The position numbers and the translations under genes are program-made. 64,000 nucleotides of DNA, from positions 1-64,000 of the forward strand of contig JAQBUH010000008.1 in NCBI GenBank assembly GCA_027624075.1, read 5' to 3'. This DNA comes from Chloroflexota bacterium (GTDB lineage: Bacteria > Chloroflexota > Dehalococcoidia > Lucifugimonadales > Lucifugimonadaceae). Shown here in pieces: positions 37,024 to 60,932 of this stretch; position 1 is the stretch's first letter, and each line of letters begins with the position of its first letter. The notes beneath the pieces were generated by a model. The model made no database searches. It saw only the letters and a list, made by a program, of their open reading frames with translations, and had not been told where the DNA came from.

Positions 37024-38277
37024 ATGCATCCGGAAGGCTCACTGGCGCTCGACCTGCAGCGGCTGTGGCCGGGAGTCAACTTCAGTTCCCGCATCGACCC
37101 CGGCGAGATCCGCGTCCCGGTTCCGTCTGCTGATGGGCGGAGCGTGGCGGGTCACTTCACAATCCGCACCAAGTCTGCTTTCGACCCGACCAGTCTCGGA
37201 ATGGAGTCGCCGGTCTGGATCATTCTGTGTGAGGCGGCGCGAGTTTCTCAGGACGTCTATCACCGTCTCCGGTCACGCTGTTCGGAGGCGAGACGCCGGT
37301 TCCCAGAGTTTGGCTGGCTACACATGGAAGGTACGTTTGAAGGGTCTCTCGGATGGTACCCGACGCTATGGACGCGCTGGCAGTCTGCGGCCATCCAGGA
37401 GCGAGAGGACGCCCGCTCCTTCTCGCTCCCTTCGCACTCCAACACGGCGCTGTTCCCTGGCGGTTTCGATGATCCGCAGATTTCCGCGCTCCGACGCGTG
37501 CTGCCAGAGGCAAAGTTCATGGAGCGTCACATGGGTGTTCCGGTCCCTCCATCCGGCCGCGTGCACAGCTCATTCGGCGCTGGTCTGCACGTGCGTGAGG
37601 TGAGGTACGACCCCGGGCAGCCTGTTTTCATCGGGATCGACCCCGGTTACTCCGGCCAGCCATCCACCTACGCCGTTGAGGTATGCCAGCTCAGGAAGTT
37701 CGAAAACGGTCACCGGCAGTGGCAGGTGATCGATGAGATCGCTATCAACCGGCACGCAATGCCGGGGTTCACGGTGGCCGACGTCTGCGACATTGCGATG
37801 AGCAGGCCGTGGTGGCAGAACCCTCACAAGACGGGCGTGATCGATGTCGCCGGCACCGCGCACGCCGGGGCGCAGGAGAGCAACGCTGAGGTGTGGCGCA
37901 GGCGGACCGGTCTCGTTCTCATGCACGAGAAGGTGAGCATCCTGCCGGGGATAGACCGGTTCGACACCTGCCTGAAAGTGGACGAGGAGACTGCCGAGCC
38001 CGGACTTGTCATCGACCCTGCGTGCGAGCTTCTGATCTCAGAGCTTGGCGGTGGGCCAAACCCTTTCGACGGCCAGTCGCATATGTATCGATGGAATACA
38101 GATAGAGCGGGCGACGTGATCGGCCGGGTGCCGCGTGACGAATACTGCGACGGGATCAAGGCGCTGACATACCTGTTCATCAACGTCATGGGATACGCCG
38201 GGCGCGGGCGACTCGGCGTAGCTGAGCCGGCGAGGATCAAGGTCAGGAGCCGAAGGCAGCGAGCGGGTCAGCGGTGA
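37024..38277 (+). CDS. phage terminase large subunit, N-terminally truncated (no Walker A)
   Basis: 'FTIRTKSAFDPTSLGMESPVWIILCEAARVS' (Walker B-like region), nuclease motif 'VFIGIDPGYSGQPSTYAV', 'VIDVAGTAHAGAQESNAEVW', 'YCDGIKALTYLFINVMGY'. An in-frame stop lies just upstream at 37015-37017. Confidence 0.75.
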   Translation: MHPEGSLALDLQRLWPGVNFSSRIDPGEIRVPVPSADGRSVAGHFTIRTKSAFDPTSLGMESPVWIILCEAARVSQDVYHRLRSRCSEARRRFPEFGWLHMEGTFEGSLGWYPTLWTRWQSAAIQEREDARSFSLPSHSNTALFPGGFDDPQISALRRVLPEAKFMERHMGVPVPPSGRVHSSFGAGLHVREVRYDPGQPVFIGIDPGYSGQPSTYAVEVCQLRKFENGHRQWQVIDEIAINRHAMPGFTVADVCDIAMSRPWWQNPHKTGVIDVAGTAHAGAQESNAEVWRRRTGLVLMHEKVSILPGIDRFDTCLKVDEETAEPGLVIDPACELLISELGGGPNPFDGQSHMYRWNTDRAGDVIGRVPRDEYCDGIKALTYLFINVMGYAGRGRLGVAEPARIKVRSRRQRAGQR

Positions 38278-38293
38278 GAACGTCGCCTCGAAT

Positions 38294-38863
38294 TTAGCCG
38301 CCCGCCTGCCGCAGCGCCTTCTCCAGTAGCTCAAGCGCCCTCAACGCGAACAGCTCCATGTTTTCGGCGCGGTCTGCCATCCCGGTCTCCAGCGTCTCGC
38401 TCAGCTCGACTGGCCCTGAGACCGCTACGCAGGTGTGACCCGCATCGTCGCCGTAGCGGTTGCCCGCCGGGCCGGCCGCTCCGGTCTCACTCAGTCCCCA
38501 GGTCGTGTTCAGTCGCTCTCGCGCCGCCGACGCACAGAGCAGCGCGTATGGCTCGGACGCCGACCGCATCCCAGGGTGCGCTTCCAGGTCAACCGCAAGA
38601 AACGCGTCACGGGCAGGGCCGGTGTATATCACCGCTCCACCCATGAAGTACGCCGAGGCGCCGGGTACCGAGAGCAGCGCGGCAGAGACGAGTCCGCCGC
38701 TTGAGGACTCCGAAACCGCAACGGTCTCCCGGCGGTCCTTCAGCAGTCCGCCAACTTTACCGGCCAGTTCATTCAGACGGCTCATTGGATTCTCCCGCCG
38801 ACAGTAGAGCAGATCGCGTGAGTCCGGGCAACCGGCTTTCTGCGCCTGACACGTGGTCTTCAA
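38294..38863 (-). CDS. CinA family protein (nicotinamide-nucleotide amidohydrolase domain)
   Basis: 'ETVAVSESSSGGLVSAALLSVPGASAYFMGGAVIYT...GLSETGAAGPAGNRYG' CinA C-terminal domain signatures; start may be MSRLNELAG. Confidence 0.85.
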   Translation of the reverse strand: MKTTCQAQKAGCPDSRDLLYCRRENPMSRLNELAGKVGGLLKDRRETVAVSESSSGGLVSAALLSVPGASAYFMGGAVIYTGPARDAFLAVDLEAHPGMRSASEPYALLCASAARERLNTTWGLSETGAAGPAGNRYGDDAGHTCVAVSGPVELSETLETGMADRAENMELFALRALELLEKALRQAGG

Positions 38864-38979
38864 TTCGAGCCAGGAGCGACCCTATTCTGGACTTCAGGCG
38901 GCCAGTGTGACCAATCGGTCCAGAGCCGTTGGGTAGGCGGTTCGTAAAGCGCGGCTCTCTGTTTCAGCGGGGGATCCTT

Positions 38980-39984
38980 ATGCCTGACAACTTCACGAGT
39001 GAGCTTGTTGACTCGGCCGGCGAGGTCTTCGCTACAGACGCAATCGGAGGCTCGTCCGTTCACTATCCTATCGGCAAGCTGGCGTGGGGTCCGCTGAACA
39101 CGGCGAACCTGACGGACACCGCCAACCCTCTGCCGGTGCAGATCAACGGCAACGGGACATCGTCGAGCGCTCCGTTCTTTGTCCGCGGCGCCAATGACGA
39201 TTCCACAGTTCCCATCTCCGGTACGGTGAGCCCGGCCGCGGGCGCCTCTTTCGCCGTTGCAGTCGACTCCGCAGACATCATCCGCGCAAAGCTGGTCGAG
39301 TCTGACTCGAACGGCCCTGTCTTCTCAGAAGGCGACTCAGCGGTGGCGGCGAGGTTCTTCGCCGTTGGGTTTGAGAGCGACTCCGTCGCCAACGTGTTCA
39401 GCGTCATCTCATCTGGCAGGCCGCTACCCGTCCAGGGCGACACCGTCGTCTCTATCACCGGATACGTTGCGCCATCGACCGCTGTGACCGTGACGAACAT
39501 GTCTGACTCCACGGTGACCGTGAGTGGGACAGTTACGGTGCAGGGCAACGCGTCCGTGGCAATCGTCGCAGGGTCGTCTGTTTCGATTTCCAACGACTCC
39601 GCCGGTCAGATCGGGGTCGGTCTGAACGCCATCGGCGGCAACTCGGCGGGAGCGCTCCAGACATTTACAACAGTGCTCAGCTCCGCACTCGAGACCGTCA
39701 CGTCGAGCGCCGGCCGGCTCTACGGATACATGCTGACCAACCCTGACACGGCGGCGATCGTGTACGCAAAGATATTTTCAGACGACTCGACCGGGGTGAC
39801 CAAGGGTACGACGTCTCCTGTGCTCAACCTGGGAATACCTCCTGTTGGCGGCGCCAACGTGACCTTCGCCCAGGGAGTCTTGATGTCCAGCGGGATGTCT
39901 GTCATGGCGGCAGGCGGCGCCGGACTGACCGATACGTCAGCGCCCGGCAGCAACCTTGTGGTCAATCTGTTCTACAAGGGCTGA
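38980..39984 (+). CDS. phage-like structural protein, beta-rich, repetitive Ser/Thr/Val
   Basis: 'DTANPLPVQINGNG' and C-terminal 'GRLYGYMLTNPDTAAIVYAKIFSDDSTGVTKGTTSPVLNLGIPPVGGANVTFAQGVLMSSGMSVMA', a pattern common in tailed-phage virion proteins; RBS-like gggggatcc upstream. Confidence 0.65.
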   Translation: MPDNFTSELVDSAGEVFATDAIGGSSVHYPIGKLAWGPLNTANLTDTANPLPVQINGNGTSSSAPFFVRGANDDSTVPISGTVSPAAGASFAVAVDSADIIRAKLVESDSNGPVFSEGDSAVAARFFAVGFESDSVANVFSVISSGRPLPVQGDTVVSITGYVAPSTAVTVTNMSDSTVTVSGTVTVQGNASVAIVAGSSVSISNDSAGQIGVGLNAIGGNSAGALQTFTTVLSSALETVTSSAGRLYGYMLTNPDTAAIVYAKIFSDDSTGVTKGTTSPVLNLGIPPVGGANVTFAQGVLMSSGMSVMAAGGAGLTDTSAPGSNLVVNLFYKG

Positions 39985-40070
39985 GCGGGCTGTCTCTATG
40001 TGGCTGTCCGGCTGGCCGCGCCCGGCGGCGAACGGTCCCGTTTCAAGGTGTGAAGGATTGAGGTGGTCCG

Positions 40071-40265
40071 ATGGGTTTCTGGTCGACGGTCCTGACGGCG
40101 CTTCGGTTCAGGTCGGGACGGCTGCCCGTGATTACGGAACCTCTGAGCGTGCGCCGGCTCCGCCTCGACGCGTCAGTTCCACGGTTACGGCGGGACACGG
40201 TGACGGTGCGCAGGGTGTTGAGTAACAGCAACGTGACCCACAGGGTTCGAGTGGAGGTGAAGTGA
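40071..40265 (+). CDS. small hypothetical protein in phage structural cluster
   Basis: 64-aa ORF (MGFWSTVLTALRFRSGRLPVITEPLSVRRL...) whose TGA overlaps the ATG of the next ORF; RBS ggaggtgaag precedes that next ATG. Confidence 0.5.
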   Translation: MGFWSTVLTALRFRSGRLPVITEPLSVRRLRLDASVPRLRRDTVTVRRVLSNSNVTHRVRVEVK

Positions 40266-40612
40266 TGGCCAGGCAGTCATGGGGTGAGCCGGACGGTATT
40301 CCTGAAGGGTCAGATTTTTCATTGGAGGCGGTCCTGACCGTTAACGGCGCGATAGCTCCGTCCCAGGTGACCTCCAGCGGTGCGATCACGCTGTCGGTCG
40401 AGAACACGGTCGAGCCGATCATTCCTCTACTGATCGACGAGGTACGCGACGCGGTGGACGCGCCCTCGGGACTCGTGCGTTGGAATATCACCGATGCGCA
40501 GTCTTCCGCGTGGCCTGCGGGGACGTTCAACGGCGACATCAAGCTGATCGATTCGGGCGGGATGATCACGTACTGGCCGGTGAGTCTCAAGATCAGGAGC
40601 GTGATCGACTGA
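40265..40612 (+). CDS. phage-like structural/tail-associated protein
   Basis: 'FSLEAVLTVNGAIAPSQVTSSGAITLSVENT...VRWNITDAQSSAWPAGTFNGDIKLIDSGGMITYWPVSLKIRSVID'; position in cluster. Confidence 0.55.
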   Translation: MARQSWGEPDGIPEGSDFSLEAVLTVNGAIAPSQVTSSGAITLSVENTVEPIIPLLIDEVRDAVDAPSGLVRWNITDAQSSAWPAGTFNGDIKLIDSGGMITYWPVSLKIRSVID

Positions 40613-40673
40613 GTCTCCCCTGATCGATTTTCCGGCGAGGTTTAGAGAGCAGCGGATGTGAGGTGAAGGTGAG

Positions 40674-41942
40674 ATGCCGGCAACACAACGGCGGAACAGG
40701 AAGCAGCTTCGGCATTCGATAGGCCTGCTGCTGGGCGCGGTGCGGCACGAAGGTGGCGTTGTCGAATCTAGTCCGTCTGAGGCGTCACAGAACGCGGCGA
40801 AGATCACAGACACCACCCTCGCTTACGGCACAGACAACGAGCACCGCGGCAGGTGGGTCTATGCGACAGACGCAGGCGGCGCAACCCACGTCAGGCGCGT
40901 GTTTGCCTCTTCGCGGGACGAGCGCTCTATAACGGTGTCGAAAGCGTTCCCGGCCGTGCCAGACAGCACGTGGATATACGAGCTCTGGGATATCGATGTG
41001 CCGCCGGGCGTTGTGCATGAGTTCATCAACCAGGCGATCAGCGGCGTCACCCGCAAGGGCTCCGTCGAGGATGTTGACGACACCTTTCACACCGGCGGCC
41101 GTATCAACTCATTTGCTCTGTCTTCCAACTGGACAGGGGTAAGGGATCTTAACTGGCGGTCCGGGTTTGCCGGTCAGCAGATCGCATCGCTGGACCAGCC
41201 GTTGACCGAGCTTACCGCGAACGTGAGCGCCGTTGCCGACTCAGCGGATTTCCGCCAGGGGAGCGCGGCGGCACGGCTAGATGTGGGGGCTGCCGCCGCG
41301 GCCAATGAGGCGCTTGCGGAGGCGGGTTTTACCGCTGTGGACGGTCGAGGCTATGACCGCGTTGAGTTCTGGCACAAGTCGAACGGCGCCATCACCTCGT
41401 CGAACCTCGTCGTGCAACTCAGGCAGGGGTCGTCGACCCATGAGTCGATCCCCGTGCCGGCCACACTGGCCACGCAGAGCGGCCAGTGGCGATACGCCTC
41501 GATGGCACTCACCGCGCCAGAGCGTAACAACGCTATCAACGCGGTCCGCGTGGCGGCGGGGAGTAGCGACGGCGGCGCGATAACCGCATGGCTCGACGAC
41601 GTGAAGCTGGTCAGGTCTAACTCCGAAGTGTGGCATCGGGTGCCGCGCGAGTTCTGGCGAGTTGGCGCAGCCAGCAGGCAATTCACGCTCACAGATGACG
41701 CCCGGCTGCGGGTCACCGGTGTCCGGGCGCCAACGCTACTCGACTCAGACTCGCAAATCTGTGAGGTGGATACGCAGTATGTGATCAATTCGACAGCCGC
41801 AGGCGTGATGCGCTCCAGGAGCGACCGGCGAGGCGCAATCAGAGACGCCGCCATGCAGCAGGCGGACCTGTACGAGCAGATTGCGCAGACCCAGCGCCTC
41901 AGAATGAACACTCCAGCAAACATCAGGTGGGTGGACGACTAA
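40674..41942 (+). CDS. phage-like virion protein
   Basis: 422 aa with jelly-roll-like central region ('GYDRVEFWHKSNGAITSSNLVVQLRQGSSTHESIPVP...WRYASMALTAPE'), RBS upstream, TAATG overlap with next gene. Confidence 0.6.
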   Translation: MPATQRRNRKQLRHSIGLLLGAVRHEGGVVESSPSEASQNAAKITDTTLAYGTDNEHRGRWVYATDAGGATHVRRVFASSRDERSITVSKAFPAVPDSTWIYELWDIDVPPGVVHEFINQAISGVTRKGSVEDVDDTFHTGGRINSFALSSNWTGVRDLNWRSGFAGQQIASLDQPLTELTANVSAVADSADFRQGSAAARLDVGAAAAANEALAEAGFTAVDGRGYDRVEFWHKSNGAITSSNLVVQLRQGSSTHESIPVPATLATQSGQWRYASMALTAPERNNAINAVRVAAGSSDGGAITAWLDDVKLVRSNSEVWHRVPREFWRVGAASRQFTLTDDARLRVTGVRAPTLLDSDSQICEVDTQYVINSTAAGVMRSRSDRRGAIRDAAMQQADLYEQIAQTQRLRMNTPANIRWVDD

Positions 41943-43777
41943 TGGCAAATCCAGCTGTGACCGGAAAAGGGCAGATCTGGCTGGACGGCCGGACCTACTC
42001 AATCGACGGCCCCGTCCAGAGAGAACTGGCGACGCGCTTTGCTCCCAAGACCGTAATCTGGGACTACACAGATGAGTCGAATCCGCTGGTTTCGACTGCC
42101 ACGTGGCGGTCATGGAACGGTGGGTTCGGGCTCGAAACTGTTCGCAGCGCAGACGACTTCAACCGTCACCGGTGGAGTTCCCTCTACACCCGGTTGCCGA
42201 ACCACCTGATGCTGGGGCCGAGCATACGTGAGTTCGGGGGTGGGCTCGGCACCTTCCTCAGCCGTTACTTTGACTTCAACGACGATCTGTATGTGATCGA
42301 CGGGAACAAGGTTCACTTCTACGACGACGCAAACGACAGCTTCGTGCTGGCGCCGGTCCGGATACTCTCTACCGACGTGACAGACGCCACGACCGGAGTG
42401 CTCAACGGCGAGCCGGTGACCGTGATAGCGCAGGGTATCGCGACTGACTGGTCGTCCAACGCAAGTGACTCAGCCGCGTGGAACCGTGATCTGACTGACA
42501 TGACCAGGGTCACTTTCTGGAGAGACCTCCTGTGGGGCACAGACTCTTCGGACCAGCTGTTTTTCACGAACGATCTCAACGATGGTTGGACCCAGGTCGC
42601 GACGCTTCCTGAGCCTTCAGCAGATGTCGTAAACCTGTTTGCCGGGCCGTCAGGAGATCGCGGCGACCCTGAGGCCCTGTACCTCGCCACTCGCCGGGGC
42701 CTGTGGGTGTACGACAACCTCAGCGAACGGTTCCGCAGCACCGGTCTCACGATGCCGCGCTCAAACGCGTCAGCGGCCGCGTGGAACGGATCGGTGTACT
42801 ACACCAACGAGCAACGTGTTTTCCGGTTCACGCCAGGGCCAACGAATGTTGTGGATGATCTAACGCCGGTCGTCGTCTCAGACAGCGTTACTCCCGGAGA
42901 GTTGCTGGGTCACTACCAGGAGGCGCACCCGGGTATTGACGGCGTGTTCTTCCTCACCAGCGGCAAGCCGCACATTCACCAGTGGGACGGCAAGGCGTGG
43001 AGCAGCCTGCCGGGCGATGGGAACGGCGGCTTCCAGGCCAGCGAAGACATGGGTGGCATGTTCCTGTCGACGGCCAAGGGCAAGCACCGCCTTGTGTACG
43101 GTCATCTCAAGTTGTTCGCCTTCAACGGGAGCGTGCGAATAAATCTGCCTGTGCTGAGCACGGACCTCATCGGTCAGAGCGGCCAGGGCTTCATGCACAT
43201 CGGACAGCTCGTCACGCCCTGGTTCGACGGATTCGTCTCGGGGCGAGACAAGCTAGCGGTGAGCATCGGCCTTGAGGTCTCGATTCCAGACTCCGCGGAA
43301 ACTCTCCGGATCACCTATTCGAAGGATGACGGTGCCGTGGCCGGGCAGATTCTCGAACTGAACGATCCGGGTTATCACGCGATCACTGTGCCGATACGAG
43401 ACAAGGATGGTAAGGCCACCGGTGTGCTGTTCGACAGAATCTCACTCGGAGTTGAGATGGAGATCGACCTCGCTGACGCGTCACATCTCCTGCACAGCCC
43501 TGACTTGAAGCGCCTATCGCTGAACTACATCAAGGCCCAGCCCATCCGGTGGGCGTACAGTTTCCTCATCCAGCCGGAAAGTGGTGAGAGCGGCGCTGAG
43601 ATCAGGCGGTCCCTGGAAAAAACGTTCGAGAAGCAGTCCCTGGTCGGGTTCGCATTCCATGATCCGGCTTCGGACTTCGAGGAGGAAAAGCTCGTGACGC
43701 CGATAAGCCTCAGGAGTGAGGAGATTACGGGCCTGGAGGAGCGGGGCAAGTTTCGGATTGTGGTCACGGAGGTCTAG
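41942..43777 (+). CDS. phage-like tail/virion protein, probable beta-propeller-like repeats
   Basis: ~612 aa; repeated 'FYDDANDSFV', 'LYLATRRGLWVYDN', 'VYYTNEQRVFRFT' type blades; coupled to neighbours. Confidence 0.6.
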   Translation: MANPAVTGKGQIWLDGRTYSIDGPVQRELATRFAPKTVIWDYTDESNPLVSTATWRSWNGGFGLETVRSADDFNRHRWSSLYTRLPNHLMLGPSIREFGGGLGTFLSRYFDFNDDLYVIDGNKVHFYDDANDSFVLAPVRILSTDVTDATTGVLNGEPVTVIAQGIATDWSSNASDSAAWNRDLTDMTRVTFWRDLLWGTDSSDQLFFTNDLNDGWTQVATLPEPSADVVNLFAGPSGDRGDPEALYLATRRGLWVYDNLSERFRSTGLTMPRSNASAAAWNGSVYYTNEQRVFRFTPGPTNVVDDLTPVVVSDSVTPGELLGHYQEAHPGIDGVFFLTSGKPHIHQWDGKAWSSLPGDGNGGFQASEDMGGMFLSTAKGKHRLVYGHLKLFAFNGSVRINLPVLSTDLIGQSGQGFMHIGQLVTPWFDGFVSGRDKLAVSIGLEVSIPDSAETLRITYSKDDGAVAGQILELNDPGYHAITVPIRDKDGKATGVLFDRISLGVEMEIDLADASHLLHSPDLKRLSLNYIKAQPIRWAYSFLIQPESGESGAEIRRSLEKTFEKQSLVGFAFHDPASDFEEEKLVTPISLRSEEITGLEERGKFRIVVTEV

Positions 43778-44071
43778 ATGGCAAGGGTAATCATTGCGTC
43801 GCTCAGTGTTGCGGACTCTGTGAGCGCGGTCCAACTGCAGTCTGCGCCAAGGCCCAGGGTGCGGTCTGTAGTGTTCAAGGCACGCGTTGGAAACATCGCC
43901 TCGATCTATCTCGCATCAGACTCCGCCGCGAAGTCGGCCGGGTTCGAGCTTGCGCCGGGAGATCGCGAAGAGTGGTGCGCGCTGCCGGCCACCCTGAAAG
44001 GGTCCACGTACTGGATCTGGGGCGCCTCATCCGGGGACAGGCTCGACTACGCGCTGCTGCTCGAAGAGTGA
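43778..44071 (+). CDS. small hypothetical protein, last gene of structural block A
   Basis: ATG immediately follows the TAG of the preceding gene; 97 aa with plausible composition. Confidence 0.6.
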   Translation: MARVIIASLSVADSVSAVQLQSAPRPRVRSVVFKARVGNIASIYLASDSAAKSAGFELAPGDREEWCALPATLKGSTYWIWGASSGDRLDYALLLEE

Positions 44072-49422: not shown

Positions 49423-50439
49423 GTGAAAGCCGCCGTCTACCAGGGTAAACAGCGTTTCGAAGTGACCGACATTGCCGCGCCGGAGCCGGGTCCGGGCCAG
49501 GTCCAGATTAAGGTGCGGCGTTCCGCGATCTGCGGCACAGACGTCCACGCATTCATGTACGGCCTTGCGCCAGCGGGCTCGGTCCTTGGTCATGAGTTCG
49601 CGGGCACGATCTCAAAGCTGGGCAAGGGCGTGACACGGTGGAAGGCGGGCGACCGCGTCATCGGCGGTGGCGGCGAGTGGCCGGAAGGGAAGGCGCCACC
49701 GACCCGGTCCCACCCGCGCTATAACTACCGCACCATGGGTTTTGCGGACACTCGAACGCGAGGCTATGCCGAATACACGGTGCTGGACGAGTGGGCGCCG
49801 TTGCCAATACCCGCAGGTGTGACAGATGAGGCCGCTTCAATTACGGAGCCTTGCTCCGTTGCCGTACACGCCGTCCGGCGATCAGCCCTGCGGCTAGGAG
49901 ACACCGTCGGCGTAATTGGAGCGGGCCCGATCGGCCTGCTGGTGACTCAGGCGGCGCTCGCCGCGGGCGCAAGCCGGGTGATCGTTTCGGAGCCGGCGCC
50001 TGCCCGTGCCGCTGCGGCGCGCCAGTCAGGCGCGGCCGAAGTGGTTGACCCGTTTGAGGTTGACGCGGTCGAACGCATCGTTGAGTTGACCGGCGGAGTG
50101 GGCCCGGACGTGGTGTTTGATTGCGCGGGTCTCAAGAACACATTGGACCAGGCATTTCTCTCTGTCCGGCGCTCTGGCCAGGTGATTCTTGTCGCGGTGC
50201 CGTGGGAGCCGCTGCCGATCTTGCCGTCTGACTGGATGGCGCGCGAGATCGATTTCCGGGCAAGCTGGGGCGGATTGCCCGAGGACTGGCGCATCTCACT
50301 CGACCTGATGCGGCTCGGTAAGGTGAACGCCGGAGTGTTGATCTCCGAAAATAGCTTGATCGACCTCGAGCAGATCCAGGAGACGTTCGAGGCATTGATG
50401 AATCCGTCTGTACAGGTCCAGACGGTTTTCCGGCTGTAG
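49423..50439 (+). CDS. zinc-dependent medium-chain alcohol dehydrogenase family protein
   Basis: 'SAICGTDVHAFMYGLAPAGSVLGHEFAGTISKLGKGV' zinc site and 'VGVIGAGPIGLLVTQAALAAGASRVIVSEP' Rossmann motif. Confidence 0.92.
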   Translation: MKAAVYQGKQRFEVTDIAAPEPGPGQVQIKVRRSAICGTDVHAFMYGLAPAGSVLGHEFAGTISKLGKGVTRWKAGDRVIGGGGEWPEGKAPPTRSHPRYNYRTMGFADTRTRGYAEYTVLDEWAPLPIPAGVTDEAASITEPCSVAVHAVRRSALRLGDTVGVIGAGPIGLLVTQAALAAGASRVIVSEPAPARAAAARQSGAAEVVDPFEVDAVERIVELTGGVGPDVVFDCAGLKNTLDQAFLSVRRSGQVILVAVPWEPLPILPSDWMAREIDFRASWGGLPEDWRISLDLMRLGKVNAGVLISENSLIDLEQIQETFEALMNPSVQVQTVFRL

Positions 50440-50564: not shown

Positions 50565-51281
50565 ATGACTAAAGCCACGGCGCCACTCACTGCTGAGCAG
50601 CTTGCGGCCATCACGAGGCTCGACACTCCGACCATTGCCAACGCGCTTGAAGAGCTCAACATCCGGCCTCGCACAGAAGGCTTCATGCGGCCAGAGATTC
50701 GCTGCGTTTCGCCGGTAAATGGCACGGTCGTCGGATACGCCGTGACAGGCCTCATCTCCGCCAGGCACCGGTCGCCAAAGGCACTCGGCCGAGCAGACTA
50801 CTGGAACGCGATAGTCGCTATCCCCGCGCCGCGCATGGTCGTCCTTCACGACATCGACTACCCGGACTGCATCGGCTCCTACTGGGGTGAAGTGCAGGGC
50901 AACACCGCGCTTGGCCTGGACTGCGTGGGAGCGGTTACCGATGGTGGTGTGCGAGACCTCAAGGAGGCCCAGGAGATGGGCTTCCCGTTCTGGGCGAAGG
51001 ACGTGATGGTATCCCACGGCTATATTCACGCACTTGAGTTCAATGTGCCGATCGGAATCGGTGGAGTTCTCGTGCGTCCGGGTGACCTGATCGCCGCCGA
51101 CATCCACGGCGTGATCGAGATTCCGCTGAGCGCCGCGCCGAAACTTCCCGAAGTCGCCCGCATGCTGACGGAGCGAGAGTCCATCGTCATCAAGGCCGCC
51201 AGGGCAGCTGGCGCATCACCGGAAACGCTGGGCGCGGCCTGGAATGCGGCGTCAAAGATCGGGGCTGAGCAGACCTACTAG
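50565..51281 (+). CDS. RraA family protein (aldolase/regulator of RNase E-like fold)
   Basis: 'LDTPTIANALEEL', 'YWGEVQGNTALGLDCVGAVTDGGVRDLKEAQEMGFPFWAKDVMVSHGYIHALEFNVPIGIGGVLVRPGDLIAADIHGVIEIP'. Confidence 0.9.
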   Translation: MTKATAPLTAEQLAAITRLDTPTIANALEELNIRPRTEGFMRPEIRCVSPVNGTVVGYAVTGLISARHRSPKALGRADYWNAIVAIPAPRMVVLHDIDYPDCIGSYWGEVQGNTALGLDCVGAVTDGGVRDLKEAQEMGFPFWAKDVMVSHGYIHALEFNVPIGIGGVLVRPGDLIAADIHGVIEIPLSAAPKLPEVARMLTERESIVIKAARAAGASPETLGAAWNAASKIGAEQTY

Positions 51282-51411
51282 CTCCGGCGCCAGACACGCC
51301 GGCCAGACACGCCGGGAAGGAGATAGGGACTGCCTGGCGCTACCATCAGAACCACAGGCAGACTCACAAGTGGTCTGTGTTGTGTGTTTGATGCTCGCCG
51401 GGAGGTGCAGG

Positions 51412-51864
51412 GTGGCTCAGCCGGATATCTATGTCCCAAGAGGTGCGGTGATTGACGAACGCGCAGGGTTCGTTACCGCAGGCGGCGTTCAGTATGTGCA
51501 GTCATGGCTTGTGGGGCGTGCGCCTGAGAGCGGCGAGCGGGTCTTCAAGCACGAGTTCAAGCTGGTCTACAGAGGCGAGTCCGAGATGTTCGGGGTGCTT
51601 GCCGAGGAGAGCGCCTCGGAGTCGCAGGTAGAGGACCTGGCCGCGTGGGTCAGCGAGCGGACCGCCGCCAGGATCGTTGAGCGACTGCGCCGCCGCGGGT
51701 CGCGCCTCACTCCTGAGCAACTCGCCGATCCGAGTCACTGGGACGCCAGGAGAGAACTCGCCACAATCTGGCGTGACTACAGGAATTGGTCGAAACGTGT
51801 TCGTTCAGGCGGGACGGCAAGAGTCTATGTGCCCGGCTTTTCTGCGCCGGGTCAGGCCCCTTGA
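51412..51864 (+). CDS. hypothetical protein, possibly phage-module associated
   Basis: GTG start with 'ggaggtg' RBS-like upstream; 'AQPDIYVPRGAVIDERAGFVTAGGVQYVQSWLVGRAPESG...' protein-like composition. Confidence 0.5.
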   Translation: MAQPDIYVPRGAVIDERAGFVTAGGVQYVQSWLVGRAPESGERVFKHEFKLVYRGESEMFGVLAEESASESQVEDLAAWVSERTAARIVERLRRRGSRLTPEQLADPSHWDARRELATIWRDYRNWSKRVRSGGTARVYVPGFSAPGQAP

Positions 51865-52215: not shown

Positions 52216-52691
52216 TGCGGTTTGTGCCCTTCATCATCGGGTGTCTTGCCGGATTCGCTGCCGGATTCGCCGAGTGTGTGCCATGGGCCAATCGGCCAAT
52301 CGGCCAATCAGCCGGGTCACCACATGCCTGCCACAACCTGATTGTCTCCACAATGCACGGCGGTGAGATGAGAGGCGACACCTGCCGCGGTTGCTGCCTG
52401 ACGCTGGAGATCTCACATGAGCCCATCACGTGCCCGGCACGGAGCAGGCCGCCGGGCCGGATCGCGGTTTGCGCAACCGGTTGGTCCCCATTCTGTCCTC
52501 GCACTGGCAGCGCTATGCGACGGTTCGCCGGGACACAACTCTCGATGTCCGGATCTGTGCTGCATGCACTCCTCCAGCCCTCATGTGCCGCTGTGCCGGC
52601 GGTACCGGACACGGCGGTCTCTGTGCCTGCTCAGCCAGCCCGCAAAATGGTGGACTGAGGCTGCGCTCGAACCGTGAAGTCAGGAGGCTGT

Positions 52692-53780
52692 GTGGTGCAA
52701 GAATCGATGGCACGTGACGAGAGTGATGAGCCGGTGGATGCAACTGCCCTGAAATCAGGCAGCGGCCCGGTGGACTCACCGCCGGAGTCAAGGTCCGCCG
52801 GACCGCGCGACGTCTGTCTCCTTGGATATGCGGAGGAGACGCGCGACCTTGTGTTCGGACTTCCGGAGACTACTGAGATCTGGGCCATCAATATGGCGCA
52901 CGTCTTTATTTTTGGCCCGCAAGGACCAAAGACCCGGGCAGCCGCTACTTACTGGTTCCAGATTCACCCTCGAGACTGGGCGGCGGCAGGGAAGGCTCCG
53001 ACCGGTTTCTTCGGCAGGCCAAAAGAGCATCTCGATTTTCTTGCCAGGTTCCAGGGCACGGTCTGGATGCAGGCTGCCGACCCCGACATACCGAACTCCA
53101 GGCGATATCCACTCGAGGACGTGATTGCGGCGTCGGGCCGTCGTTACTTCACCTCTACGTTCGCCTACCAGCTGGCCCTTGCCTGGTACGAACACGCCGT
53201 GCTGGGCCGGAGCATCGGGAAGCTGCGTGTGTACGGCGTAAACCTGACCAGCATGGACGAGTACATCCACCAGAAGTCATGCGTCGAGTACTGGCTCGGC
53301 AGGCTGGAGCAGCTGGGAGTCGATATCGAGATTCCGGGTGCGTCCGCGTTGCTCCAGGGCAGGCTGTACGCCATCGGTGAGTCAGACCTGTCGAACCACG
53401 CCTTCGAGCGCCTGCAGTTCTGGAAGAGCAAGTACACCGAGGCGTGGGCGAACATCAACACGTCGAACAGCATGAAGGCGGAACTGAAGTTCTGGGCCGC
53501 CCAACTGTCCGCCATCGCGGAGGCTCATCCGGACGAGATCAACGCGGAGATCAGGGCCAGGATTCAGAGTGTATTCGACCGGCGCTCGGCGAACCTCAAC
53601 GCGCTCCAGGAGCGGTCCGGCGCCGAGTTGAACGGGGCGCTTGGCATGGTGAAGGACAACCAGCACTGGCTTGCGATCACCGGCGGGATTGACCACAGGG
53701 CGCCGCAGCTCCCTGACCTGAGACTGCCCGCCGAGTACCTGAGCGGTGACTGGACGGTCCCTGAGCCGAAGGCAATTTAG
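52692..53780 (+). CDS. hypothetical protein found in phage contexts (MptE/DUF115-like fold suspected)
   Basis: 'RDVCLLGYAEETRDLVFGLPETTEIWAINMAHVFIFG...YWFQIHPRDW...GQ..FTSTFAYQLALAWYEHAVLGRSIGKLRVYGVNLTSMDEYIHQKSCVEYWLGRLEQLGVDIEIPGASALLQGRLY'; immediately upstream of the portal. Confidence 0.6.
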   Translation: MVQESMARDESDEPVDATALKSGSGPVDSPPESRSAGPRDVCLLGYAEETRDLVFGLPETTEIWAINMAHVFIFGPQGPKTRAAATYWFQIHPRDWAAAGKAPTGFFGRPKEHLDFLARFQGTVWMQAADPDIPNSRRYPLEDVIAASGRRYFTSTFAYQLALAWYEHAVLGRSIGKLRVYGVNLTSMDEYIHQKSCVEYWLGRLEQLGVDIEIPGASALLQGRLYAIGESDLSNHAFERLQFWKSKYTEAWANINTSNSMKAELKFWAAQLSAIAEAHPDEINAEIRARIQSVFDRRSANLNALQERSGAELNGALGMVKDNQHWLAITGGIDHRAPQLPDLRLPAEYLSGDWTVPEPKAI

Positions 53781-53809: not shown

Positions 53810-53980
53810 ATGACACCTCGCTTTGAACGCCCTTACCGCCGAAATAGTCTGAAAACAGAGGCGCCAGAAGCGCCAAACCACTCATCTGTAGAGCCGGCGG
53901 AAAGCCTCTCTGCACAGATCAATGGAACCAGGGAGTGTGCGGATTGGCTATCGACAACGGGCGATTTGCAGGAAGAGTGA
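53810..53980 (+). CDS. short ORF overlapping the portal upstream region
   Basis: ATG ORF of 56 aa (MTPRFERPYRRNSLKTEAPEAPNHSSVEPAESLSAQINGTRECADWLSTTGDLQEE) not in the ORF track; weak. Confidence 0.25.
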   Translation: MTPRFERPYRRNSLKTEAPEAPNHSSVEPAESLSAQINGTRECADWLSTTGDLQEE

Positions 53981-56166
53981 CCGGGTCGACCGGCGTGATT
54001 GACGCCCGTCCGGCCGCAGCTGGCGAGCATTCGCCTCCCGATGCGGCTGGCGGGCGGGCGGAAAGATCTGCTGGAGTCCGCCCAGGCGTGGCGTCTCCCG
54101 TGGAGATGCACCTGGGACGACTCGCCGAACTCGCGCCCGACATCGGCGCGCGGATAGAGCAGAAGTTCAGAAACCTGTCGAGCGTGCATGACCGCATGGA
54201 CGCTGACTACTCGCTCTACGCACTGGACCACTGGCAGCCAGACGTCGCCGAGGCGCTGTCGCCGGAAGATATCTACACCACGAACGAGCCACGCGTGCTG
54301 GCCGAAAAGGTGATCTCATTCATCACGGCCACCGAGCTCGTGGTGAGGGCGCCCAACGATGACGCGCGTGAGCGGCAGGAGTCTGCCAATGACCTCGCCG
54401 AACAGCTCGCCATCGGCATGCTCAACAACATCGACCGCCGGCACCGCCGGTTGGGCCATCCGCCTGTCGTAGACGCGCTGGCATTCTTCAGCGTAGTCCG
54501 AGGCCGGTACGCAGCGGCGCGCGCCGTGCTCCGCAAGCGGCCAAACGGCGAGACGTTTGAGGACATTCTTCCCCTGGACCCACGGCACCTGTGCGTTCAG
54601 CCAGGCGTCGAGGAGCCACTGTGGGCTGCCTATCGGCTCCGTCGCTCAGTGCTGGAGGTCCGCGAGGAGTTTCCTCACTTCGCATTCGAAAACGGCCACT
54701 GGTCCGATGACGGCGAAGGCGTGGATGTGTTCGAGTACTTTGCTCGTGAGGAGAACCCTGAGTTCGACGTTACTTCACGCGACCCGTTCCGGCGCCATCC
54801 GTTCATCTACGTGGCTGGCACGATTGTTGACGGCCAGTGGGCGCGGCTCCCGCACAACCTCCACATGCTGACGTTCCCGGTGGTCGTGGCCCCTGTCGGG
54901 CCTCAACCGATGCTTGCGCCAACGGAAAAAGAAGACTCTCCTGATGTGCACTTCGGAGAGAGTATTTTCGCCGAGAACCGCGGTGTCTGGGACAGGTTGA
55001 ACCGGGCGACATCGTACGTTCTAGACCTGACCGGCAAAGCCTCCGACCCGCGCAAGAAGGTGTTCTCGCTGGACGGCACGAAGTCCCTTGATGACGGCGC
55101 CAATGACAAAGGCGCCGAGATCAACCTTTCGACAGCTAACCAGGAAGACGTGCAGAGCTTTCCTGAGGCAGACATCAATAGCGCCGTCGCCCTGTTGATC
55201 CAACAGTTGCAGAAAGACGCCGTTGCCGGAGGTCTGCCGCCACAGGCGTTCGGCCTGCTGGATAAGCCGCTTTCATCTGTCGCACTGAGGCAACTTGGCA
55301 ACAACCTGGAGCACCGCGTCCTGCCGCGAATGAGAGCGGTTGCCCGCTGTATCGAGGGCTGCCTGGAGAACCTGATCGCGCAGTATGAGACTGGCGCCTT
55401 CAACCCCATCAGTGTGTCTGGAAGACGGTTCGACAACCACCGTTTCGCCAACCGGCTGATCGAGCCTGAGGACCTGGCCGGGCACGACCCGCTTGAGGTC
55501 TCGATGGCCCTTGCGCTGCCGGAGGATGAGGTGACCCGATGGACCGTGGCGCAGATGGCCATGCAGCCCACTCTGAACGGTGAGCCGCTGGCTTCGCTGG
55601 AGTGGGTGCGTGAGCGTGTCTTGAAGATGCAGTCGCACCGGCACATCCAGAGTCAGAACCGGGAGGCCCAGGCTGTTTCGCAGGACCCTCTTGCCCAGGC
55701 GATGGGCATGTTCACGGCGGCGCTCAAGGATGGAGACAACGCACTCGCCGCGATCTGGTTCGACAGGCTTCAAGTTCTGCACTTGCAGAGGCAGGTAGAG
55801 GGACAGACAGCGGTGAGGCGGCTCCTGGCGGAACGTCCTTCCGGCGCTGGCCCTTCAGGTGTTGGCAAAGAGGCGGAAAGCGCAGGGTTGCCGGATCTCG
55901 CGTCCCTGCTGGGCGAGTCTGCCGCCGGGAGTTCGCCTCTTAACGGTGGGAGCACGCTATTTAGTCCGAATCCGCTCGACGCTGTGCCGCGGCTCAACCA
56001 TGCGCTGAATCCGGCGAACGGGGCCATACCGTTCGCGCAGGCGGCCGGCGTCGGGAGCGCGCCGTCTGCGCCGGACATCAGGATGGCGGGAGCTGCAAGC
56101 CAGGGCGTTACGAGACCAGGTCTGGTTGGCGCAGACGGTGAGCCGTTGACCAGCACAGTGTCCTGA
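53935..56166 (+). CDS. phage portal (head-tail connector) protein
   Basis: ~743 aa with 'HRRLGHPPVVDALAFFSVVRGRYAAARAVLRKR...', 'HFGESIFAENRGVWDRLNRATSYVLDL', 'LPPQAFGLLDKPLSSVALRQLGNNLEHRVLPRMRAVARCIEGCLENLIAQYETGAF', typical of podovirus-like portal proteins. True start may be ATG 54106. Confidence 0.7.
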   Translation: MCGLAIDNGRFAGRVTGSTGVIDARPAAAGEHSPPDAAGGRAERSAGVRPGVASPVEMHLGRLAELAPDIGARIEQKFRNLSSVHDRMDADYSLYALDHWQPDVAEALSPEDIYTTNEPRVLAEKVISFITATELVVRAPNDDARERQESANDLAEQLAIGMLNNIDRRHRRLGHPPVVDALAFFSVVRGRYAAARAVLRKRPNGETFEDILPLDPRHLCVQPGVEEPLWAAYRLRRSVLEVREEFPHFAFENGHWSDDGEGVDVFEYFAREENPEFDVTSRDPFRRHPFIYVAGTIVDGQWARLPHNLHMLTFPVVVAPVGPQPMLAPTEKEDSPDVHFGESIFAENRGVWDRLNRATSYVLDLTGKASDPRKKVFSLDGTKSLDDGANDKGAEINLSTANQEDVQSFPEADINSAVALLIQQLQKDAVAGGLPPQAFGLLDKPLSSVALRQLGNNLEHRVLPRMRAVARCIEGCLENLIAQYETGAFNPISVSGRRFDNHRFANRLIEPEDLAGHDPLEVSMALALPEDEVTRWTVAQMAMQPTLNGEPLASLEWVRERVLKMQSHRHIQSQNREAQAVSQDPLAQAMGMFTAALKDGDNALAAIWFDRLQVLHLQRQVEGQTAVRRLLAERPSGAGPSGVGKEAESAGLPDLASLLGESAAGSSPLNGGSTLFSPNPLDAVPRLNHALNPANGAIPFAQAAGVGSAPSAPDIRMAGAASQGVTRPGLVGADGEPLTSTVS

Positions 56167-56248: not shown

Positions 56249-57817
56249 ATGTTCTTCAGTGTTTTTGTCCCAGGGTTTGGGAGCGTGTTCGTGGACGCCG
56301 GCAGCCCAGCGCTGGCGAATGCGGCGGTGCGTCAGTACCTGAGCCGCAACCGGGTCCGGCTCGAAGAGGGCGCAGACATTGGGGTTGCAGTCCTGGTCGG
56401 TGCCGGCCAGATCGGAAACAACCTGTTGCTGAACAGCGGTGGTGTTCCGGTCCTTCCTCCTGTTCAAACACCTCCGGTGACGCCAGTGACGCCAGTGACG
56501 GCGCCGGAGCCGGTTGTGGATGATGCTGAGCCGCAGGACAGTGAGCCGGGGATGCCGGCATCGCCCGGTCCGGGTTCTGGCGCGGGAGATGGCCCGGCGA
56601 CAGAGGACGGCACTGGCTCAGAGCCGTCTCCGCCTGCACAGCCCCCCGCTCAGCCAGTTGTCGAGCGGCTGTTCAGGTTCGACGTGCCGGTCATCGGCGA
56701 CCTGTATGTGCTCGCAACCACGGCAGGTGATGCAGTTTCCGCTGGCCAGGCCCACGTCGAGCTGTTCCGGGAAAGCAGCGGACTTCCCGCCGGATTCCGC
56801 CTCGGCCTGCCAGAAACGCTCGCAGTCGGCGACTTGCCTGCGGGCGCCGACCCGAACTTCGTGATCGATTCGACAGGTCTGATACGTGACGATCTCCTGA
56901 CAGGCGCCTCTTCTGCGCCCGATCAGGGCGAACCTCCAACGGTTCCGGTTTCCGCGCAGTCCGGGCAGGCGTTTTTTGTTGGCAAGGTTATCGGGGCAAA
57001 CGGCGTTCCCGGATTCTTCCGCTTAGACGCCAGAGACACAAGAGACACGTCAGAGGCTCGTGCCATTCTCGAGTCCCGGTTCGGGCCAGCCTTCCGGGTG
57101 GAGATCGTAAGTTCTCCGGAATTCCTGTTCGACACAGACACTGACTTCGTCGCTTCTCTCCAGCGCAGCCAGCTTGGAGACGTGGACGCGTTCGTCCAGA
57201 CACTTGCGCTGGTGACGGCTCCGGAGGCCACTGAGACGGCCGGCGAAAACTCAGGAGGGCCACTGTTCGGCGATGGCAGCCTTCCGGTGGACGTTCAGCA
57301 GTTCCCATTCGCCAGTTTCCAGAACGCGGTTGCGGCGCTTGGGCTCGACCCCGAGGGCGCGCTTGGCAGCACGATAAGCCGGCAGTTCGACACTCTGGCC
57401 CCTGTGGCGCAGATCGGCTCATTGACAGGCACCGTCGGGCCGATCGGTCAGTCGCCGGGCGCGCTAGAGGGATTCTTCCGGGACCAGTTCGGAAATATTG
57501 GCATCGCAGCGCAGACTTTTCGAGACCTGCTGGCCGGGCAAACGAGCGGGGACCTGAGCGCAGACCAGCTGCTGGCGTTCCGGGCACTGGCGAATCCGGA
57601 TGTGTCCACCAGCCGAGGGCGAGGCGCAGCTGGAGACGTCTTCGGGCTTGCCAGGGCCGCTGCGGAAGACCGGTTCGGATCATTCGTGGCGTCGCGGCTC
57701 CTGCCAACAAATCAGCGACTGTTTCGGGAACTGGAGCGGCAGCTCGCTGACGGTCTGCCAGACACCAGCTTTCTGGAGTTTGCACGGAGCCAGAACCTGT
57801 TGCCTGTGCCTGTATGA
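56249..57817 (+). CDS. phage-module protein with Pro-rich linker (possible virion/internal protein)
   Basis: 522 aa, coupled downstream of the portal; low-complexity linker 'PPVQTPPVTPVTPVTAPEPVVDDAEPQDSEPG'; no homology recognised. Confidence 0.55.
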   Translation: MFFSVFVPGFGSVFVDAGSPALANAAVRQYLSRNRVRLEEGADIGVAVLVGAGQIGNNLLLNSGGVPVLPPVQTPPVTPVTPVTAPEPVVDDAEPQDSEPGMPASPGPGSGAGDGPATEDGTGSEPSPPAQPPAQPVVERLFRFDVPVIGDLYVLATTAGDAVSAGQAHVELFRESSGLPAGFRLGLPETLAVGDLPAGADPNFVIDSTGLIRDDLLTGASSAPDQGEPPTVPVSAQSGQAFFVGKVIGANGVPGFFRLDARDTRDTSEARAILESRFGPAFRVEIVSSPEFLFDTDTDFVASLQRSQLGDVDAFVQTLALVTAPEATETAGENSGGPLFGDGSLPVDVQQFPFASFQNAVAALGLDPEGALGSTISRQFDTLAPVAQIGSLTGTVGPIGQSPGALEGFFRDQFGNIGIAAQTFRDLLAGQTSGDLSADQLLAFRALANPDVSTSRGRGAAGDVFGLARAAAEDRFGSFVASRLLPTNQRLFRELERQLADGLPDTSFLEFARSQNLLPVPV

Positions 57818-57924
57818 GCCGGGATTGATCTGGAGACCGCCAGTTCGAGACAGGCGAATATCGTGGAGTAGCGCGGAAGCCCCGGCAAAATCCCGGCCAA
57901 CCCGCAAACCAGAGAGGGAGATCG

Positions 57925-58308
57925 ATGGTCAATCAGCAGATCGAGACGCAGCAGAGCGGTGGCTTGAACGCAGCCGGGTTCGACACTTCATTGATCGATC
58001 CGGGTGTCCAGGAGGCGTTTCTCAGGCTGCTCGAAGGCACGGACCTTGGCGAGCGGACTCTGTTTCAGTCGATCTCGCCGTTCGACTCGTCTCCAGGCCA
58101 GGGGCTCCAGTTCCAGGGGCTGTTCACTCCGACGTTCAACAGGTTCCTGGGCGAGCTTGGCGCCCAGATCCGGTCCGGCCAGGAGCCGTCGCTTACCTTC
58201 AACCAGTTCCTGACAGAAGAGTTCGACCCGCGGCGCGCCCTTCTTCAACTGCCGGACAGGCGGACAGACGTCGCCGCTGGCGGCACAGTCTTCAGGTTTA
58301 ACCAGTGA
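57925..58308 (+). CDS. small phage-module hypothetical protein
   Basis: 127 aa with 'gagagggag' RBS upstream; 'FNRFLGELGAQIRSGQEPSLTFNQFLTEEFDPR'. Confidence 0.55.
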   Translation: MVNQQIETQQSGGLNAAGFDTSLIDPGVQEAFLRLLEGTDLGERTLFQSISPFDSSPGQGLQFQGLFTPTFNRFLGELGAQIRSGQEPSLTFNQFLTEEFDPRRALLQLPDRRTDVAAGGTVFRFNQ

Positions 58309-58385
58309 TGCCCTGGACAGGACGTCTTACGGGGCAGGCCGGAGACACTCTTGGGAGGTAAGAGACATCCTGGAGTGGTCCGCTG

Positions 58386-58523: not shown

Positions 58524-58678
58524 TCCGCGGGGACCACGGGCGTCGGAGCTATTTCGGCCGTTGGCTTCGAGGCCGTTGGCGTCGGGGCTGCGTTCGCCGT
58601 GGGCGATCTGGCACGCGCGAATACCGCAACTCCGAGAGCAGCGAGCAGTACCCAAAGCGTTAAAGGCCACATGCGCGT

Positions 58679-60157
58679 TTAGTACCGCTCGACCACCGGG
58701 TTGAATTTCGCGTCTTCATCCAGCGGGTACATCGGCCGCGCGCAGACGGTGTGGCCGAGAGACCGCAGGTTCGCCGATGTCGCTCCCGGGGCGTCAACGT
58801 TGATGTTCTCCTCTACCCAGTCATTGAAGAACTGCGGCTCGCAGTGCGGTGACTTAACCACCGTCGAGTGAAAATCCTTCGGGTCGAGGCCGTTCGCGAA
58901 GAAGAGCGCCCGGTCCACGTGCATGACCGGTTTTGTCGTGGCGACCAGCGTGACCTTGCCGCCCCTGAGAACCGCTGTCCTTCCCGGAAACTGCCTGAAC
59001 ACCCATGTTTCGAGATCAAACGAAGCCTCCGATAGCGATACCACTTCAAGCTCCATGTCGAGCGGCTTGTAGCGCGGGTCCAAAGACCCGCCAACCCTGG
59101 CGTTGATCCTTGACCCAACACCTGCGGCATATGCCATCGCCACAAGCGGCGGGTCGGCAATCGGGGCAAGCACGGTGTGTGGATAGCTCTGCCGGACCAT
59201 CTCGGAGACAATGGCGTTCGAGTTACCCGATGCGCCAGAGCTTGTGGCGTCGGCGGCGTCTGTGAACGCGACCGGGCCTCTCATCCCTGCAGCGCGTGAG
59301 ACTGCCTCTTCGAGCCCAACAAGCGCAGCTTGCATCCGGGCCCGGTTGGGCCAGAATGCGGCGGTCATCTCCAGTGCGCCACGTTCGGCCGCATCCGCGT
59401 CTCCATCCGTGTATACAAAAGCCTGTGAGCACAACTCCGGAACATCTGTGAACGGGTTGCAGATCAGGAATCCAGCAGACAGAACGCCCGGCGCCCTTTC
59501 AAGAGCCTTTGCCTGGCGGATCTGAGAGCCGAACAGACCTGTCTCCGTAATCAGTTCGTTGCCGCGGACCAGCGCAGGCACGCGGACGCGCACCCCAACC
59601 GGGGAGGCGCCGTCATTGACGATGCGGAGCAGCAGCTTTGCAGCCCGTCTGCCCGTGTCTGCAAAATCGACGTGCGGGTAGGTGTGGTAAGAGGTCACGG
59701 CGTTGGCGTGCCTCATCATGCGCGCCGTCAGCACGCCATGCAGATCGAGCGAAATCACTATCGGCACAGATTCGCCGAGGATCTTACGTGCCTCTTGCAA
59801 CAGGTATCCCTCCGGGTCGAGCTCTTCGGTGGTACCCATTGACCCGTGCAACGAGAAGTACGCGCCGTCGATTTTGCCGGCGTGTGGCTTCAGCGCGTCC
59901 AGGAATTCCGTGGCCATGCGGACGAAGCTGGCGTGCTCAAGCGGCCCCGCCGCGTCGCCCTGCGCATGCCAGGTCGGCACGATCTCACAACCTGCCGACT
60001 CGAACTCGGCTATCGCGCCCCCGGCAGTGCTGTTCTTGCCTCGATTTCCGGTGATCAGCTCTTCGCCACGCAGAATCGTGAAAAAGTCATACAGACACAG
60101 GACAGGGTTGAACGTGGAGATCTCCTGCTCACAGCCGGTTACCAGGATTCGTGGCAT
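58679..60157 (-). CDS. M81 family metallopeptidase (MlrC-like)
   Basis: 'ILVTGCEQEISTFNP', 'GAYFSLHGSMGTTEELDPEGYLLQEARKILG', 'VISLDLHGVLTARMM...YHTYPHVDFADTGRRAA'. Confidence 0.9.
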   Translation of the reverse strand: MPRILVTGCEQEISTFNPVLCLYDFFTILRGEELITGNRGKNSTAGGAIAEFESAGCEIVPTWHAQGDAAGPLEHASFVRMATEFLDALKPHAGKIDGAYFSLHGSMGTTEELDPEGYLLQEARKILGESVPIVISLDLHGVLTARMMRHANAVTSYHTYPHVDFADTGRRAAKLLLRIVNDGASPVGVRVRVPALVRGNELITETGLFGSQIRQAKALERAPGVLSAGFLICNPFTDVPELCSQAFVYTDGDADAAERGALEMTAAFWPNRARMQAALVGLEEAVSRAAGMRGPVAFTDAADATSSGASGNSNAIVSEMVRQSYPHTVLAPIADPPLVAMAYAAGVGSRINARVGGSLDPRYKPLDMELEVVSLSEASFDLETWVFRQFPGRTAVLRGGKVTLVATTKPVMHVDRALFFANGLDPKDFHSTVVKSPHCEPQFFNDWVEENINVDAPGATSANLRSLGHTVCARPMYPLDEDAKFNPVVERY

Positions 60158-60455
60158 TAATCATCCTCACAATCAGTGTTTTGCCGATACTCAGGCAGAT
60201 TGTACCGTTGGCAGTTGCTGTGCCGGACGAGGCACACGGTCCAGGCCGGACATCGCTGCGCCTTATTGGAGACCTGTTAACCACGCGTCATCGGCTGAGC
60301 GTGCGAGAGTGCCTCGTACCAGTAACCGCGCCCGGCCGGGGTGAGGTCAGGCACGTTCGCTACGAAGTTGGCTCATGTGTGGCGCCTGACATGACCGTTT
60401 GTGTTCCGGAGCGCTCTCACTGAACATCTACAGGGAACGTCAGGTCAGTTCAGCG

Positions 60456-60932
60456 ATGAGGCAGGTTGGCGCCGTGCCCGGGAAATCCATCAGTCGAGAA
60501 GAAATGGCAACCACGCAATCAGCCGGGGACTCGTGCGCGCCGGCGCCCGCAAACGGCAGAGGCAACCTTGCCAAGCACAAGCGCTCGACGCCGAAAAAAG
60601 GTGGAGTAAGCGACGCGCCGCAAGAGCAGGGCAGCGATGCGGTCCATTCGCTTCAACCAGCGCTGATTGGCCAGCCTTGCCCGGACGAGAGAGCTGACGC
60701 CGAACTACTCTCGGTCACTCCGGAAGACTACGTCCCGACGGATTCAGAGATAAAGAGCGAGCTATGGCGAATTGCGACGGGAGAAGGTTCCGAGGCGTCC
60801 CGTGTGTCGGCTCTACGGGCGCTCGCTGACATCATGGGACTGATGCGCACCGCTCCCCCGGAGCTTCCGGAGGCCATGTCGGCCATCATGGACGCGCTGT
60901 CTCAAGGGCTCTCGAGGCCACCTGTGTCCTGA
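60456..60932 (+). CDS. terminase small subunit-like protein
   Basis: C-terminal 'DSEIKSELWRIATGEGSEASRVSALRALADIMGLMRTAPPELPEAM' resembles the small-terminase helical core; basic low-complexity N-terminus; start uncertain. Confidence 0.5.
   Translation: MRQVGAVPGKSISREEMATTQSAGDSCAPAPANGRGNLAKHKRSTPKKGGVSDAPQEQGSDAVHSLQPALIGQPCPDERADAELLSVTPEDYVPTDSEIKSELWRIATGEGSEASRVSALRALADIMGLMRTAPPELPEAMSAIMDALSQGLSRPPVS

Follow-up and report, generated by a model that had tools for sequence, protein, structure and literature searches.

A probable gene transfer agent-like element, derived from a short-tailed phage and dispersed among host genes, in a genus of SAR202-type Dehalococcoidia

A stretch of 64,000 nucleotides from a member of the Chloroflexota (Dehalococcoidia, Lucifugimonadaceae; contig JAQBUH010000008.1 of assembly GCA_027624075.1), hereafter the window, carries phage packaging and virion genes in blocks scattered among host genes. 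Are these the remains of a broken prophage, or an inherited element akin to a gene transfer agent (GTA), a domesticated virus that carries bacterial DNA from cell to cell? RcGTA is siphovirus-like, and we know of very few GTAs outside the Alphaproteobacteria. The window lies on an 82.5-kb contig (G000:C49) in a 2.3-Mb metagenome-assembled genome (MAG), G000, referred to here as the window genome. With a probability of roughly 0.72, we regard it as holding a copy of a domesticated, podovirus-derived set of virion genes that is vertically inherited, under selection and GTA-like, in a genus of SAR202-type Dehalococcoidia.

Layout, descent and selection in the genus

Matches to PHROGs for the terminase large subunit (TerL) and the portal protein, and Pfam matches for their neighbours, bear out the original prediction that the two blocks are split by host genes; the intervening genes checked (CinA, FAD oxidoreductase, 2'-5' RNA ligase, mycothiol isomerase and M81 peptidase) were all of host type. 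Other genes are nicknamed by their kb position in the window (39.0, 40.3, 40.7, 41.9, 43.8, 51.2, 52.7, 56.2, 57.9 and 60.4). Single-protein library searches of the window virion open reading frames (ORFs) gave matches for TerL and portal alone, and further identities were therefore taken from profiles built from orthologues and searched against marine phage contigs, which recovered homologues of the 40.7, 41.9, 43.8, 51.2 and 57.9 genes. The proposed virion-type grouping holds to this extent. No integration or replication module was found beside the virion genes in the scanned neighbours, all of which are host genes.

The gene order of the genus runs from scaffold and major capsid protein (MCP) genes (-) through TerL, CinA (-), 39.0-40.3-40.7-41.9-43.8 and FAD oxidase to RraA, and continues with 51.2, 52.7, portal, 56.2, 57.9, the M81 peptidase (-) and 60.4. 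This order of virion and host genes is common to G147 and G148, and to G149, G195 and G198 wherever their contigs reach; no 51.2 or 52.7 gene was detected in G148. CinA, FAD oxidase, RraA and the M81 peptidase separate equivalent virion genes across the five congeners, as far as contig coverage permits. Relatives thus carry neither a contiguous prophage nor a blank, either of which the original prediction had tied to recent decay, but the same dispersed layout; in place of the contiguous phage genome with integrase and regulators of an integrated prophage, interleaving was found at equivalent places in several species. TerL is present in 6 of the 7 genomes of the genus vs 0 of the 69 family members outside it, and MCP in 5 of the 7; CinA orthologues of other genera have no phage genes beside them. 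Three pairs of handles (G147 and G199, G148 and G197, G149 and G196) apparently denote one genome each, as their sizes and match coordinates coincide, and loci L029, L030 and L031, from a scan of GTDB genomes, belong to genus members. G147 and G148 lack the alcohol dehydrogenase gene of the window in their syntenic regions, so that the interruptions between virion blocks vary by species.

Selection was measured as pN/pS, with pS (~0.54-0.85) near saturation and virion pN at 0.04-0.3. The virion genes gave values of 0.07-0.42 (MCP 0.07-0.09; 39.0 gene 0.09-0.15), overlapping their host neighbours (0.05-0.54); selection is therefore purifying, not the neutral evolution that had been named as a mark of decay. 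Virion and host GC contents differ by at most 0.01 within a genome (0.627/0.617, 0.579/0.575 and 0.599/0.598), whereas genomes differ by up to 0.05 and the homologous phage contigs stand at 0.35-0.45, consistent with amelioration. Between congeners, identity is 71-81% for virion proteins and 77-87% for host proteins. Shared interleaved synteny, comparable divergence and host-like GC together point to vertical inheritance, as in a GTA.

A fragmented prophage, decaying and broken up by insertions or rearrangements, would account for the host genes between the blocks and for the truncated TerL and lost MCP of the window genome. However, the dispersed layout recurs in five congeners, whose genes are full-length with synonymous divergence near saturation, and the remaining virion genes of the window are intact. 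As an account of the genus, decay is already refuted by the shared synteny and purifying selection, and we consider it highly improbable overall. The original prediction had left the choice between domestication and fragmentation undecided; the shared dispersed layout and purifying selection settle it in favour of a domesticated element in the genus, with the damage to the window copy nevertheless real.

Phage ancestry, particle genes and a shared promoter motif

A search of IMG/VR produced 384 contigs with TerL relatives, of which 80 were retained (loci L035-L114), and the core window blocks correspond to one contiguous module of these uncharacterised marine phages. In five longer contigs the genes lie on one strand in one run comprising a gene resembling that for the terminase small subunit (TerS), TerL, portal, a ~750-aa gene, a 57.9 homologue, a giant gene, scaffold, MCP and, further on, homologues of 51.2, 40.7, 41.9 and 43.8; the giant gene and the 43.8 homologue were not seen in every contig. 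The phages UViG_3300030207_001559, _3300025277_001374 and _3300030109_002494 share homologous TerL, portal, MCP and 148-type genes with the element, as well as 51.2, 40.7, 41.9, 43.8 and 57.9 in order, although not every gene occurs on each contig. They differ in having their own small-gene region, a TerS, a giant protein of 1500-1700 aa, a fibre and a GC content of 35-45%. Structural and packaging genes of the element (TerL, portal, MCP, nozzle and others) are thus derived from a tailed phage. The 56.2 gene is, by position only, the counterpart of the ~750-aa phage gene. The window portal is ~30% identical to the phage portals and to those of family f37, described below. Among 50,697 named phage records (INPHARED), no relative of the window portal was found and TerL relatives were distant only, the nearest being those of actinophages at ~26% identity. 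The retained IMG/VR contigs themselves represent a large marine phage group with the giant gene.

The MCP was identified at L011:8193-9065 (phrog_267 E=2e-6; PF25209 E=2e-11), and its orthologue lies immediately upstream of TerL, in divergent orientation, in G147, G148, G149 and G195. A search of the window genome found none. The earlier remark that no major capsid gene could be recognised is therefore correct for the window genome but not for its lineage. A weak capsid match (E=1.2e-4) was also seen in another genus of the family (L191, G140:C18:10801-11121). Full-length TerL orthologues are 497-522 aa long, and the intact ones retain Walker A, the acidic residue of the ATPase and the three nuclease aspartates.

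The block at 38929-44071 had been described as a virion-type cluster; this is supported by the phage homologues of 40.7, 41.9 and 43.8, but the block looks like tail and adaptor genes rather than head genes. The best solved-structure folds for the 41.9 product are the nozzles P22 gp10 and Sf6 gp8, together with the Pa223 tail (E 5e-9 to 6e-8), with T7 gp12 of the T7 fiberless tail further down the list; the model has a mean pLDDT of 60, the best TM-scores are 0.24-0.30 and sequence identity is ~10%. This nozzle-like model suggests that the particle would be short-tailed. In phages, the 40.7 homologue is a conserved partner upstream of the nozzle gene, a position that would suit a head-to-tail adaptor; its model (pLDDT 79) has a predicted jelly-roll insertion, and the matches of its fold search, for the most part jelly rolls that bind carbohydrate along with further beta-rich domains, are uninformative on role. 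For the beta-repeat protein 39.0, orthologue profiles found no homologue in the marine phage contigs; it is possibly a fibre or decoration protein.

Alignment of the regions upstream of the blocks revealed the motif TGACAC-N2-CGCTT-N21-TAGNCT. With at most one mismatch, five sites were found in 227 kb, all at the portal and scaffold-MCP blocks, compared with 0 in five Markov resamplings; for the portal site of the window, 0.30 would be expected at up to 3 mismatches. Across ~370 kb of the window genome and 450 kb of G148, the sole further site above threshold was a degenerate one upstream of TerL. As the motif was first seen by inspecting these promoters, a cross-trained scan is a fairer test than the first count. 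A model built only from scaffold promoters ranked the portal site 2nd in G147 and G195 and 4th in the window genome and recovered the TerL sites; the G148 portal site fell outside the top five. All of IMG/VR held 2 exact matches, so the motif is not general to these phages. By eye, the 39.0 block has a degenerate form with altered spacing, and a word-sharing test between block promoters revealed nothing. The shared motif suggests that the blocks would be co-regulated.

A replaced segment in the window genome

The original prediction had noted a damaged TerL, and alignment confirmed that the window protein is without its first ~100-125 residues, Walker A included, although it keeps the ATPase Glu and three nuclease Asp; this damage is specific to the window genome. 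Homology to relatives restarts at 37018, inside TerL. To the left lie a DUF1828 gene (35975-36634; PF08861 E=5e-11) and a DUF6978 gene (36631-37029; PF22398 E=7e-9), and beyond them a tRNA-Leu that is also found at the syntenic place in L030, L031 and L172. The insert stands where relatives carry the 148-type gene, MCP, scaffold and the TerL 5' end, so that, by this comparison, ~5.5 kb is swapped for ~1.5 kb. The DUF pair beside the tRNA-Leu resembles a small mobile or defence-type insert. The loss looks recent, since the window's other virion genes are still open and, measured against G148, do not clearly outpace host genes; the apparent replacement may alternatively stem from misassembly at the junction. 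With MCP, scaffold and the Walker A part removed, the window copy should no longer make DNA-filled particles and is probably dead. Coordinates of all features are collected in Table 1.

Table 1. Features of the window that belong to, separate or adjoin the virion blocks
Feature	Position	Strand	Basis or remark
tRNA-Leu(taa)	35446..35533	+	Host gene, left edge of replaced segment; ARAGORN
DUF1828 gene and DUF6978 gene, insert	35975..37029	-	Pfam; in G000 only at this place
TerL, 5'-truncated	37024..38277	+	phrog_2 E=3e-9; alignments to full-length orthologues and phage TerL
CinA, host	38294..38863	-	Pfam PF02464; genus-wide between TerL and tail block
Beta-repeat protein (39.0)	38929..39984	+	Conserved in genus
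Small ORF of tail block (40.3)	40262..40612	+	Orthologues in G147/L029, G149/L031, G195, G198
Virion protein, adaptor by position (40.7)	40674..41942	+	Profile match to phage genes; model
Tail nozzle-like beta-propeller protein (41.9)	41927..43777	+	Profile match to phage genes; fold search
97-aa gene (43.8)	43778..44071	+	Directly 3' of nozzle gene, as in phages
Alcohol dehydrogenase gene	49423..50439		No counterpart in syntenic regions of G147, G148
Virion gene (51.2)	51244..51864	+	Homologue of phage 118-122-aa gene upstream of adaptor
Conserved portal-block gene (52.7)	52674..53780	+	Orthologues in G147, G195; no Pfam match
Promoter-like motif	53811..53850	+	Exact match, upstream of portal gene
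Portal protein	53935..56166	+	phrog_104 E=8.5e-4
56.2 gene, fast-evolving	56249..57817	+	Placed like phage ~750-aa gene downstream of portal
Small gene (57.9)	57925..58308	+	Homologue of phage 114-210-aa gene, equivalent position
M81 peptidase, host	58679..60157	-	Pfam PF07364; conserved downstream of portal block
Possible small-terminase-like C-terminal segment (60.4)	60399..60932	+	Orthologues in G147, G148

Other Chloroflexota lineages and the role of the particle

In family f37, of the same order as the window genus, three genomes carry portal and TerL on separate contigs, with TerL as a lone phage gene amid host genes and its flanks common to G063 and G078. Within the order, G039 has a TerL match on a 6043-bp contig (L017, L034). 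In a second class, TerL was found in 18 of 41 genomes, and homologues of portal, TerL, MCP, 40.7 and 41.9 lie in regions of ~12-23 kb broken by host genes. Synteny is shared by G151 and G154 and, for the most part, by G155; portal, MCP and 41.9 keep that order in G275 and G277. Portal profile A5 detected nothing in this class, in a search that had no positive control, and a local portal profile gave matches at E 7e-5 to 4e-8. Virion pN/pS in the G151-class lineage is 0.08-0.61. As observations apart, a sigma-factor gene (L011:537-2058, -) with a likely membrane partner, a candidate regulator, directly follows the virion genes in f37, and several genomes of the G151 class (L192-L215) have two full-length TerL paralogues, ~61-64% identical and the second on another contig, as well as short C-terminal TerL fragments.

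In the TerL tree, the members of each host lineage cluster together, and f37 falls with the phages (97/95), separate from the window genus; branches are long and the deep order is unsure. This arrangement favours separate domestications. It could also be taken, along with the existence of marine phage relatives, as a sign of a virus still spreading with a dispersed genome, or of repeated recent acquisitions of phage genes at one place. Against this stand the similar divergence of virion and host proteins, the host-like GC of the virion genes, the insertion points common to genomes and a locus in which no replication gene was seen, and such an explanation is barely probable at all.

In intact relatives, MCP and scaffold, TerL, portal and nozzle occupy distinct blocks, and one promoter motif precedes three or more of these. 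Under the preferred reading, a domesticated GTA-like element, the blocks would be switched on together. Their proteins would assemble into a small short-tailed particle, whose heads TerL, without a phage genome to package, would load with host DNA; the particles would then exit by lysis and deliver this DNA. A domesticated particle of another purpose, either a killing particle like PBSX or a container for protein or nucleic acid, has to be weighed here, as selection on virion genes is silent on the role of the particle, no DNA-delivery or competence partner was identified, and PBSX packages host DNA without injecting it (PMC12946183). However, TerL with its catalytic positions, portal and nozzle are all kept and would be superfluous for a container or a tail-only weapon. 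This alternative is unlikely, and a motor, portal, capsid and nozzle under selection, with no replication genes nearby, fit a GTA better.

Among known systems, FpGTA of Faecalibacterium prausnitzii, the first podovirus-like GTA (2026), is alike in lying outside the Proteobacteria at two loci, with a TerL-portal-scaffold-MCP set and a near genus-wide distribution (PMC12946183). It differs in its two compact operons, where the present element has four or more blocks with host genes in between, and in its holin/endolysin and demonstrated particles with ~9 kb of DNA. RcGTA (Rhodogtaviriformidae) likewise consists of vertically inherited, phage-derived structural genes over several host loci, five in number (PMC9662315); compared by description, it is alphaproteobacterial with proven transfer, whereas the present element is podovirus-like with unnamed marine phages as its nearest relatives. 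Literature searches for GTAs in SAR202, Chloroflexota or Dehalococcoidia found no relevant report, and a GTA-like element is, within the literature searched, new to the Chloroflexota.

Several points weigh against a GTA-like element. It is known here from its genes, and the comparison draws on MAGs. As assembled, the window copy cannot work, lacking MCP and Walker A, and the intact element is that of its congeners. In one genus member (G136), TerL, MCP and portal were undetected and the CinA neighbour was missing too, which reflects either loss or an indistinguishable assembly gap. No lysis or receptor-binding gene was identified. Searching host genomes for the giant phage protein gave nothing, but the search was insensitive, its query missing one of two phage records. 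Finally, the 60.4 gene, originally described as small-terminase-like, is at most a candidate TerS: it is conserved in the genus, but its best TerS match, with the G148 copy, had E=0.12.

The 60.4 gene gave no match to the phage TerS profile either. At 60699-60929 it encodes a conserved segment (ELW.IATG.GSE.SRVSALR..ADIMGL) without a helix-turn-helix, possibly a reduced small terminase of the kind described for FpGTA.

More broadly, we tentatively suggest that a single group of short-tailed marine phages may have been turned into dispersed GTAs by Chloroflexota at least two or three times, with co-regulation by a dedicated promoter in the window genus. Capsid-mediated exchange of host DNA would in that case be a lasting feature of SAR202-type and, probably, of sponge-associated Chloroflexota. 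Scattered single phage genes in MAGs, easily taken for decay, can be an inherited system. If true, these findings would add a major marine phylum to the range of GTAs, through SAR202-type bacteria and a second Chloroflexota class, allow separate domestications of one phage group to be compared in nature, and provide a route by which uncultured bacteria could exchange genes.

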